Source: Peptococcaceae bacterium (lineage in GTDB: Bacteria; Bacillota; Peptococcia; Peptococcales; Peptococcaceae). From it: a stretch of 64,000 nucleotides of DNA. The notes below the pieces were generated by a model, which worked only from the letters and a program-made list of their open reading frames with translations, was not told the origin of the DNA and searched no databases. The stretch is from assembly GCA_017399005.1 (NCBI GenBank), contig JAFQEO010000003.1, forward strand, positions 1 to 64,000, in the 5' to 3' direction. The number at the start of each line of letters is the position of its first letter. The first letter of the stretch is position 1. A program made the position numbers and the translations under genes. Positions 55,636 through 58,806 of this stretch are shown piece after piece.

Positions 55636-56553
55636 ATGAAAAACAAAAAATTAGTAACTCTGGCATTAGCCACTGCATTAACAGTATCTGCATTCACACC
55701 TGCATTCGCCAATCCTGTACTGATTAGCGAAGCACCTGCAGCCGATGCAGCAATCGTATCTCAGGAGGAACAGGCTATGCAGTTTGCAAAAGCATATGGT
55801 ACCGTACAGGAAGTAAATGAACAGGAAAGCTACATTCTGGTGCAGACTGCAGAAGACAGCATTCGTTTCAACATTGACACTCAGACATGGCTGATGGATG
55901 GCCAGACAGGTTTCCCAATCACATTAGCTGAACTGGAAGGCAAAGAGGTTGCAGTATCTCACAGCATGGCTATGACCATGAGCCTGCCGGCACAGAGCTA
56001 TGCATATGCTGTTATTACAAAAGGCGATGTAATGCCAAACTATGCAGTGATTGAAGCTGTGACTGAAACAGAAGACGGCATTCGTTTAACAACGGAAAAC
56101 GGCGGTATGTGGGTAACGGTAGCAAAAGATGCGCAGGTATCTCCATTCCGTACCAGAAACATTGTAACTACTCAGGATCTGCAGCCAGGTGCGCAGGTTG
56201 TATTATACTATGATGTAGTAGCAATGAGCTATCCAGGTCAGGCATTCACAGACAAAGTGGTTCTGCTGCAGCCGGCAGATGCTGTTCAGGCTGAAGCAGC
56301 AGCACCTGCTGAAAACGAAATGGTAAATCTGCGTGAAGCAGTAAGTGGCCTGGGTCTGGATATTCTGTGGGATGCAGAAGGGCAGACCGTAACTCTGCAG
56401 AAAGGTGCATTTACCGCAACTGTTGTAATCAATGATGTGAACTATGGTATCAACAAAATGCTGGTACGCGAAGCGCAGGCGGCAGAAATTCGCGATGGTC
56501 GCACTTATGTGCCACAGAGCTTTGTAGATGCAGTAAAAGAAGCGTTGAACTAA
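55636..56553 (+). CDS. Exported protein with copper amine oxidase N-terminal-like domain
   Basis: A 305-residue secreted protein. A signal peptide ends near AFTPAFA-N (about residue 26). The C-terminal 75 residues (NLREAVSGLGLDILWDAEGQTVTLQKG through RDGRTYVPQSFVDAV) are a copper-amine-oxidase N-terminal-like domain, which in Bacillota exported proteins serves as a wall- or matrix-binding module, not as an oxidase. The central region has beta-rich repeats with no assigned fold. AAAGGAG precedes the ATG. Codon bias suggests good expression. Function unknown. Confidence 0.85.
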   Translation: MKNKKLVTLALATALTVSAFTPAFANPVLISEAPAADAAIVSQEEQAMQFAKAYGTVQEVNEQESYILVQTAEDSIRFNIDTQTWLMDGQTGFPITLAELEGKEVAVSHSMAMTMSLPAQSYAYAVITKGDVMPNYAVIEAVTETEDGIRLTTENGGMWVTVAKDAQVSPFRTRNIVTTQDLQPGAQVVLYYDVVAMSYPGQAFTDKVVLLQPADAVQAEAAAPAENEMVNLREAVSGLGLDILWDAEGQTVTLQKGAFTATVVINDVNYGINKMLVREAQAAEIRDGRTYVPQSFVDAVKEALN

Positions 56554-56729: not shown

Positions 56730-57203
56730 ATGCGGATTCTGATTGATGCCGATGGATGCCCGGTGGTGGATTATGCGATTGCATTAGCGCAGGAGTTTCA
56801 GCTGGAATGTATCATATTATGTGATACGGCACATTATTTCAACCGGGAAGGTGCTCGTACGATTGTGTTGTCTCAGGGGGCAGACAGTGTGGATTTTGCA
56901 CTGGTTAATATGGTCAGAGCTAACGACATTGTGGTAACACAGGATTACGGTCTGGCAGCCATGTGTCTGGCCCGCGGAAGCAAACCGATTCATCAGAACG
57001 GAATGGTTTATCATGCCGGTAATATTGATGGTCTTCTGGCAAGTCGGCATGCTGCTCAGAAAGTCCGGCGCGGAGGAGGCCGTACAAAAGGCCCGTCCAG
57101 ACGGACAAAAGAACAGGATATGCAATTTATCAGCCAGCTGCGAAACCTGATTGTAGACACGCTGGCGGAAGAACATAATAATAAAATGGACATAACGGAT
57201 TGA
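56730..57203 (+). CDS. YaiI/YqxD-family (DUF188) protein
   Basis: A 157-residue protein of the DUF188 family, PIN-like fold, with the standard start MRILIDADGCPVVDYAI and the ANDIVVTQDYGLAAMCLARGS segment whose aspartates could bind metal as in PIN nucleases. Biological role unknown. Ribosome site AAAGGAAG. The ALDH-like gene starts 13 nt after its stop, so they share a transcript. Confidence 0.9.
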   Translation: MRILIDADGCPVVDYAIALAQEFQLECIILCDTAHYFNREGARTIVLSQGADSVDFALVNMVRANDIVVTQDYGLAAMCLARGSKPIHQNGMVYHAGNIDGLLASRHAAQKVRRGGGRTKGPSRRTKEQDMQFISQLRNLIVDTLAEEHNNKMDITD

Positions 57204-57216
57204 GGGGGAATTAAGA

Positions 57217-58590
57217 ATGAAAGAAGCTGTACAGAAACATCGTGAGTTTTTCCGTTCCGGAGTAACACAGGATCTGGACTGGAGAATTCATCAGTTAAAA
57301 ATTCTGAAAAAGACAATTAAAAAATATGAAGATAATCTGGTATGGGCTCTGCGTGATGATTTGGGAAAATCGGAATTTGAAGCGTATGTCAGTGAAATCA
57401 ATATGGTACTGACCGAGCTGAGCAGTGCCATTAAAAATCTGCCGAAATGGGCGGAAAACAGAAGCGTGGAAGGCGGTGGCCTGGTACAGTATCCGGGTAA
57501 GCTGGAAACCCATGTAGACCCTCTTGGGGTTGTACTGCTGATTTTACCATGGAACTATCCGGTTCAGATGGTGTTCTCGCCGCTGATTGCAGCTGTGGCA
57601 GCCGGGAACTGTGTTGTGGTAAAACCATCCAATCTGGCACCAAAAACAGAAGAAATTGTGCAGATCATTATCCGTGAAACCTTTGAAGAAGGGCATGTCA
57701 GTGTATTTACCGGCGGTGCGGAAGTGGCACAGGAACTGCTGCAAGAAAAATTTGATCATATTTTCTTCTCCGGCACATCGGAACATGGTAAAAATGTTAT
57801 GCGTGCGGCGGCAGAACATCTGACTTCCGTTACATTACAGCTGAGTGGTAAAAACCCTTGCATCGTAGACGAAAGTGCGGATATTAAAATTGCTGCAAAA
57901 CGTATCATCTGGGGGAAATGCCTGAACTGCGGCCAGACTGCAGTAGCTCCGGACTATGTTATGGTAGCCCGCTCCAGAATGGATGAACTGATTGACTATA
58001 TGCACTATTATCTGGATGAATTCTATCCGGATGGTGTTATGGACAATCCGGACTATCCTTGCATTATCAATGCGCAGGAAATTGACCGTCTAGCAGGGTA
58101 TCTGGAAGAAGGCACTGTAGTACGCGGCGGCACTTACAATAAGGAAATCCGCAAAATGGAGCCAACCATTCTGGTGAAAATGGATATTGAAAACAGTAAA
58201 GTGATGCAGGAGGAAATTTTTGGCCCGATTCTGCCGATTATCCCGTTCGATAAAATGAGCGAACCGATGAATTATGTGACCAGCCGTCCAAAACCACTGG
58301 CGCTGTATCTGTTTACAAGAGACCCGGGCGTGAAAGATCTGGTGATGGAAAATGTGCCATTTGGCGGCGGCTGCATCAATGATACGATTTTCCACAACAA
58401 CAACTCCAACATTCCGCAGCGCGGTGTAGGGGAAAGCGGCTTTGGCGGCGGCTATCACGGGAAAGCCGGTTTTGATACCTTCTCCCATGTGAAAGTTATC
58501 CTGAAACAGTCCAATGAGATTGAGTTACCGCTGCGTTATCCGCCATATCAGAAAAAACTGAAAATTGTTCGTAGTATGATGAACCGTTAA
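57217..58590 (+). CDS. Aldehyde dehydrogenase-family protein, probable pseudoenzyme
   Basis: A 457-residue protein of the class 3 ALDH fold (ALDH3/YwdH-like), which normally oxidises aldehydes with NAD(P). The scaffold is well kept: VLLILPWNYPVQM, AAGNCVVVKPSNLAPKT, FSGTSEHGKNVM and the C-terminal GGVGESGFGGGYHGKAGFDTFSH. But the catalytic cysteine of GQTC is alanine (GQTAVAPDYV, Ala242, GCA at 57940), and the general base of LELGGK is glutamine (LQLSGK, Gln208, CAG at 57838). Both changes are clear codons, not a frameshift. A nearby Cys238 (NCG) is present in some active relatives too and is not the nucleophile. Likely inactive as an oxidoreductase. Confidence 0.9.
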   Translation: MKEAVQKHREFFRSGVTQDLDWRIHQLKILKKTIKKYEDNLVWALRDDLGKSEFEAYVSEINMVLTELSSAIKNLPKWAENRSVEGGGLVQYPGKLETHVDPLGVVLLILPWNYPVQMVFSPLIAAVAAGNCVVVKPSNLAPKTEEIVQIIIRETFEEGHVSVFTGGAEVAQELLQEKFDHIFFSGTSEHGKNVMRAAAEHLTSVTLQLSGKNPCIVDESADIKIAAKRIIWGKCLNCGQTAVAPDYVMVARSRMDELIDYMHYYLDEFYPDGVMDNPDYPCIINAQEIDRLAGYLEEGTVVRGGTYNKEIRKMEPTILVKMDIENSKVMQEEIFGPILPIIPFDKMSEPMNYVTSRPKPLALYLFTRDPGVKDLVMENVPFGGGCINDTIFHNNNSNIPQRGVGESGFGGGYHGKAGFDTFSHVKVILKQSNEIELPLRYPPYQKKLKIVRSMMNR

Positions 58591-58606: not shown

Positions 58607-58716
58607 TTTTCCACAGAGTTATCCACATTATCCACATAGTTATACACAGAGAAAAGCGGATAATGACGATGTTTTCGCAAGGTGCTGTGTATAAATATTG
58701 TATTTCCTGTACACAG
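58607..58716. other. DnaA-box cluster
   Basis: Plus-strand boxes TTTTCCACA (58607-58615), TTATCCACA (58619-58627), TTATCCACA (58628-58636) and TTATACACA (58640-58648) lie at 12-, 9- and 12-bp steps, followed by degenerate AGCGGATAA (58655-58663, minus), TGTGTATAA (58686-58694, minus TTATACACA) and CTGTACACA (58708-58716). Two boxes are perfect. It resembles a DnaA-titrating or replication-control cluster, near AT-rich DNA. Confidence 0.85.
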
Positions 58717-58752
58717 AAAATACAAAACGGAATGTAAAAGTTCCTCGAACAG

Positions 58753-58806
58753 AAAATACTGCTGCAGGTGCGAAGCTGAAACAGGCTTTGCCCTGCAGTA
58801 TTTTTT
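58753..58806 (+). terminator. Terminator-like hairpin after the ALDH gene
   Basis: AATACTGC-TG-CAGG pairs with CCCTGCAGTATT (two extra bases on the left) and is followed by TTTTTT. Confidence 0.65.

Follow-up and report, generated by a model that had tools for sequence, protein, structure and literature searches.

Pseudoenzymes are commonly discussed as duplicates that stand alongside an active copy. Among the aldehyde dehydrogenases (ALDHs), which catalyze through a Cys residue and a covalent intermediate (PMC8160307), human ALDH16A1 lacks catalytic activity and has been proposed to be a binding protein (PMC8160307; PMC10650815). In bacteria, the second AldDH of GRM1 microcompartment loci has its Cys replaced by Ser or Pro and has been proposed to serve as a scaffold or regulator (PMC4207490). 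Given these cases, a pseudo-ALDH is not in itself a new kind of protein. We analyzed a class 3 ALDH gene located next to a DUF188 gene in a 64,000-nucleotide stretch of DNA (termed the window) from the draft genome (39 contigs, 99.8% complete) of a gut-dwelling member of the Peptococcaceae.

The window ALDH is like ALDH16A1 in being, by prediction from its sequence, a catalytically dead ALDH, but ALDH16A1 is eukaryotic, belongs to another ALDH family, carries an extra domain, and misses the whole catalytic triad, whereas the window ALDH keeps the Asn and consists of a single 457-aa ALDH3 domain, without the second ALDH-like domain of the ALDH16 family. With the GRM1 protein it shares a bacterial origin and a replaced Cys, yet the GRM1 protein is encoded in a microcompartment locus, next to an active AldDH. 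We found no microcompartment genes among the adjacent genes examined (ilvA and the genes for a Cu_amine_oxidN1 protein, DUF188, a prepilin, and pdxK), and a search of the genome for an active class 3 partner found none (see below). The new part is thus the in-place, stepwise route to a pseudo-ALDH, with living intermediates and no such partner.

Fold and active site of the window ALDH

The open reading frame starts with ATG, has no internal stop, and reads TSVTLQLSGKNPC and IIWGKCLNCGQTAVAPDYV, with the replaced active-site residues (Table 1). The Aldedh domain (PF00171) scored 237 bits in Pfam against a cut-off of 23, the AlphaFold2 (AF2) model has a mean pLDDT of 92.8, and class 3 ALDHs are its top matches in the PDB (TM 0.94 to 0.96), the nearest solved structures being Staphylococcus aureus AldH and ALDH3A1/3A2. 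The protein aligns with 6k0z across residues 8 to 454, has the length (∼450 aa) and C-terminal tail of class 3, lacks the N-terminal extension typical of classes 1 and 2, and is placed within the ALDH3 tree, so that it is class 3 by both descent and fold. Bacterial class 3 ALDHs (S. aureus AldH, PDB 6k0z/6k10; YwdH type) and ALDH3A1/ALDH3A2 share with it ∼42% full-length identity, the oxyanion Asn, the cofactor Lys, and Glu333. Compared with them, it has neither the catalytic Cys nor the general base, an altered PFGG loop, a one-residue insertion (G410), and Asn139.

Table 1. Features of the locus (positions in the window)
Feature	Position	Strand	Evidence or remark
Secreted-looking Cu_amine_oxidN1-domain protein	55636-56553		Directly 5' of the DUF188 gene; conserved across the genus, partly in G004
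DUF188 (YaiI/YqxD, PIN-like) gene	56730..57203	+	Pfam PF02639; NF001095 above its cut-off
Class 3 ALDH-fold protein, probable pseudoenzyme, 457 aa	57217..58590	+	Pfam, AF2 model, PDB matches
Asn139 (AAT), at the adenine-ribose-binding Glu position	57631..57633	+	Outgroup alignment
Gln208 (CAG), for the general-base Glu (LQLSGK versus LELGGK)	57838..57840	+	Outgroup alignment
Ser210 (AGT), for the invariant Gly beside the general base	57844..57846	+	Outgroup alignment
Ala242 (GCA), for the catalytic Cys (GQTA versus GQTC)	57940..57942	+	Outgroup alignment
Gln401-Arg402 (CAG CGC), for Phe-Gly of the PFGG substrate loop	58417..58422	+	Outgroup alignment
DnaA-box-like cluster, 3' region of the ALDH transcript	58607..58694	.	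Four TTATNCACA and one TTTTCCACA
Intrinsic-terminator-like hairpin and T run, probable transcript 3' end	58752..58806	+	RNA fold, -29 kcal/mol, z -5.2

A first-pass annotation of this DNA had read Ala242 in place of the catalytic Cys of GQTC and Gln208 in place of the general base of LELGGK. Both readings held, positions 208, 210, and 242 being Glu, Gly, and Cys in all 82 class 3 ALDHs examined from outside the genus. The protein therefore lacks the Cys and the general-base Glu of an active ALDH and has the oxyanion Asn (WNYP). Formation of a thiohemiacetal or thioester requires the Cys, and the protein should accordingly show neither dehydrogenase nor esterase activity.

We then looked at the 79 sites that are at least 95% conserved across outgroup ALDH3s. 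The window ALDH departs at nine of them (L118M, T185S, P204S, E208Q, G210S, S213N, C242A, F401Q, and G402R), against zero to four in the outgroup proteins. All nine lie in motifs that line the catalytic center or the nicotinamide/substrate pocket, a placement taken from established ALDH motifs and not from coordinates. Kept are Asn113 (oxyanion), Lys136 (cofactor), G186, G191, Glu333, Phe335, N388, and YHG. Position 139 is Glu in 54/81 outgroups and in the orthologues of genomes G010 and G005, Asp in that of G009, and Asn in the window and in G008. An acidic residue at the equivalent place is thought to disfavor NADP in ALDHs, with ALDH3A1/3A2 tolerating one (PMC8160307), so the change to Asn suggests that the window protein tolerates or prefers NADP(H). 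The cofactor pocket is affected by two replacements, Asn for Glu139 and Ser for Gly210, which could weaken cofactor binding instead of retuning it. Taken together, the protein is predicted to have retained an ALDH3 fold and a largely conserved cofactor cleft, with a remodeled substrate pocket. An NAD(P)-sensing function, suggested in the first-pass annotation, thus gains partial support: most cofactor-site residues are kept, and the protein may bind the cofactor.

Order of the losses and selection on the gene

The same annotation had proposed that the two catalytic residues were lost together, which proved wrong in detail. The A/Q pair is shared by an orthologue with 91% identity from another species (G008, JAFYPD010000081.1; a separate MAG, from the cecum of water buffalo) that has the same Gln208, Ser210, and Ala242. 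It is not shared by the other three orthologues compared within the genus: the orthologue from water deer colon (G009, 79% identity) has Glu208 and Ala242, and those of G010 (65% identity) and G005 (63%) have both catalytic residues. The maximum-likelihood tree backs this nesting, with support of 100/97 or better at the forks concerned (100/99 and 100/100). The nested states, Q/A in two species, E/A in one, and E/C in two, point to a stepwise loss, Cys first and Glu later. By parsimony, the first step was Cys to Ala on the stem of three species, whose Ala codons (GCA, GCC, and GCA) are at least two nucleotide changes away from TGT or TGC; the second was Glu to Gln through a single change (GAG to CAG), accompanied by Gly210 to Ser. 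P204S, G402R (Arg402 being common to the entire genus clade), and the Gly insertion at 410 are genus-wide and occur in both E/C members, showing that rebuilding of the pocket preceded the loss of the Cys.

The window comes from a draft assembly of many contigs, and one might ask whether sequencing or assembly errors created the substitutions. The presence of the same residues in an independent MAG of another species, where the Ala242 codon is GCC, and of Ala242 in a third species rules this out, and the probability that we leave to it is negligible.

We also examined whether the loss could have occurred in a spare copy. No second class 3 ALDH was found in the 99.8% complete genome, whose other PF00171 members are, according to their sequence motifs, of the methylmalonate-semialdehyde, CoA-acylating, and ProA types. 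The DUF188-ALDH pair is present in seven genomes of two genera (the window, G008, G009, G010, G005, G007, and G004). In G007 it lies at a contig end, the ALDH starting with MNETVQKH. In G004, of the other genus (L113, G004:C193), the ALDH has Glu and Cys and is canonical up to the contig end, which cuts it at about residue 354, and the gene pair therefore predates the loss. No such pair was seen at outgroup loci outside the family. An old gene pair and no spare class 3 copy together argue for loss at the ancestral locus rather than in a duplicate. The lack of a spare copy also bears on the idea of a dominant-negative or stabilizing subunit in hetero-oligomers with an active ALDH, like the inactive ALDH2*2 subunits. 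Inactive ALDH2 subunits do affect active ones (reviewed in PMC10211241), and the window protein is predicted to retain the dimer fold, but the genome offers no other class 3 ALDH as a companion, and we consider such a role very unlikely.

A search of 398 genomes of the phylum for other Cys-less class 3 ALDHs, with the pattern GQT[non-Cys]-x-APD[Y/F] (which leaves aside residues with T-initial codons, e.g., Ser TCN), yielded only the window protein and one chance match to a non-ALDH. The canonical GQTC pattern gave 28 sites in 27/199 genomes. As a side observation, a class 3 ALDH gene in a genome of the same order (L109, G020:C21:11601-12917) contains one internal TGA and is either a pseudogene or the product of an assembly error.

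A GY94 codon model, fitted to five orthologues with four branch groups, put omega at 0.062 for the two terminal branches that follow both losses and at 0.049 for the canonical branches. The branches leading to the losses had raised values, 0.29 for the stem and 0.16 for the intermediate group. The four-omega model beats a single omega by 23 log-likelihood units, and the log-likelihood falls by 140 when omega is fixed at 1 for the two terminal branches. Pairwise dS between the window and G008 is ∼0.8, at which the terminal-branch omega is robust; dS on the stem is high, and the stem values are therefore rough. Between these two species, the ALDH is more constrained than 7/8 neighboring genes, only ilvA being tighter. 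These values decide against a decaying pseudogene that is intact by chance, as the nine departures at conserved sites, compared with the outgroup maximum of four, might have suggested. Neutrality is rejected with pairwise dS at ∼0.8, the frames are intact in both species, and most neighbors evolve under weaker constraint; decay is thereby excluded, and we hold it to be extremely improbable. With its catalytic motif lost in separate species, an intact frame, and an omega close to that of canonical branches, the gene probably encodes the selected pseudoenzyme that the first-pass annotation had proposed, and the opposing prospect that it had raised, a decaying copy whose orthologues all keep the catalytic pair, did not materialize. 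A change of role would be expected to produce such a burst of change and then a return of constraint. Relaxed constraint during the transition would equally give a burst, and we therefore do not claim positive selection.

A second ALDH of the lineage seems to have been altered elsewhere. The sister-genus orthologue (G001, L102/L012; G001:C33:30665-31936) keeps Glu and Cys but has Thr in place of Asn113 and Ser in place of Gly210, and part of its PFGGVG loop is deleted; we read this from its sequence as an independent and different erosion of the active site. The loss of other catalytic elements there suggests that catalytic chemistry is dispensable in this lineage.

Proposed role and the DUF188 neighbor

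Strong purifying selection after both losses makes a noncatalytic job the most likely one for this protein. We propose, with good though not full confidence, that it is a selected pseudo-ALDH that lost its chemistry in place and works through its conserved fold and pocket, probably as a cofactor- or ligand-binding regulator or as a scaffold. Covalent aldehyde chemistry would have been lost in place by the change of Cys242 to Ala and then of Glu208 to Gln with Gly210 to Ser. The protein would still fold as an ALDH3 dimer and bind NAD(P)(H); its inert pocket may also take up a small ligand resembling an aldehyde or acyl compound, and ligand occupancy may alter the activity or assembly of a partner. 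Under this proposal, chemistry disappeared stepwise from the genome's sole class 3 ALDH at the ancestral locus while constraint was kept or regained, and assays of the five natural orthologues could test directly whether a new role came first and the loss of chemistry later.

A different possibility is that the protein is still an enzyme with altered chemistry, its pocket binding NADP(H) together with a substrate. The reaction would then proceed without Cys and Glu, e.g., by direct hydride transfer with a non-aldehyde carbonyl as acceptor or donor, or would rely on a migrated nucleophile, the nearby Cys238. The retention of Asn113, Lys136, and Glu333, the burst of pocket substitutions followed by strong constraint, the cofactor shift suggested by Glu139 to Asn, and the genus-wide S204, R402, and inserted G410, older than the loss of the Cys, would all fit such an enzyme. 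However, Cys238 is ancestral, being found in the canonical genus members and in 21/81 outgroups, and is thus not a compensatory change, which makes a migrated nucleophile unlikely. In addition, the literature searched gave no example of an ALDH that lacks the Cys and has acquired a defined new reaction. We therefore regard altered chemistry as a minor possibility and prefer the noncatalytic, selected pseudo-ALDH.

As to the partner of this pseudo-ALDH, the DUF188 protein could fill the place, on the basis of linkage. The first-pass annotation had described the two genes as cotranscribed. We found that the DUF188 gene ends 13 bp upstream of the ALDH start, a gap which, with the recurrence of the pair across genomes, makes cotranscription probable. 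The order ilvA, Cu_amine_oxidN1 protein, DUF188, ALDH, prepilin, pdxK is kept in G008, G010, and G005, and an equivalent of the downstream hairpin is also found in G008. A rate shift in DUF188 matching the branch of ALDH change was looked for and not found, so coevolution lends no support to a partnership, and we consider DUF188 an unlikely partner, though linkage makes it the obvious candidate. DUF188 (YqxD) has been described as PIN-like and was recovered alongside RNA-binding proteins in Bacillus subtilis (PMC12456014). A broader and more speculative scheme would turn the ALDH3 lineage, at its own locus, into a regulator of RNA metabolism that responds to NADP(H) or aldehydes and acts on this PIN-like protein, with the E/C, E/A, and Q/A states all alive in sister species; we think it improbable.

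The DnaA-box-like cluster downstream of the ALDH

The cluster of DnaA boxes said to adjoin the ALDH is real and sits between the ALDH stop codon and the terminator-like hairpin. It recurs 3' of the ALDH in G008, G009, G010, G005, and the sister genus (G001) and is absent at the ALDH loci of G002 and G003 and at that of the G005 paralogue. GC skew does not flip at this position, and dnaA lies on another contig with boxes of its own, which led us to reject the cluster as a replication origin. It may instead be a candidate DnaA-titration (datA/DBC-like) or regulatory site outside the origin. The genome has the exact tandem TTATCCACATTATCCACA at no more than three places.
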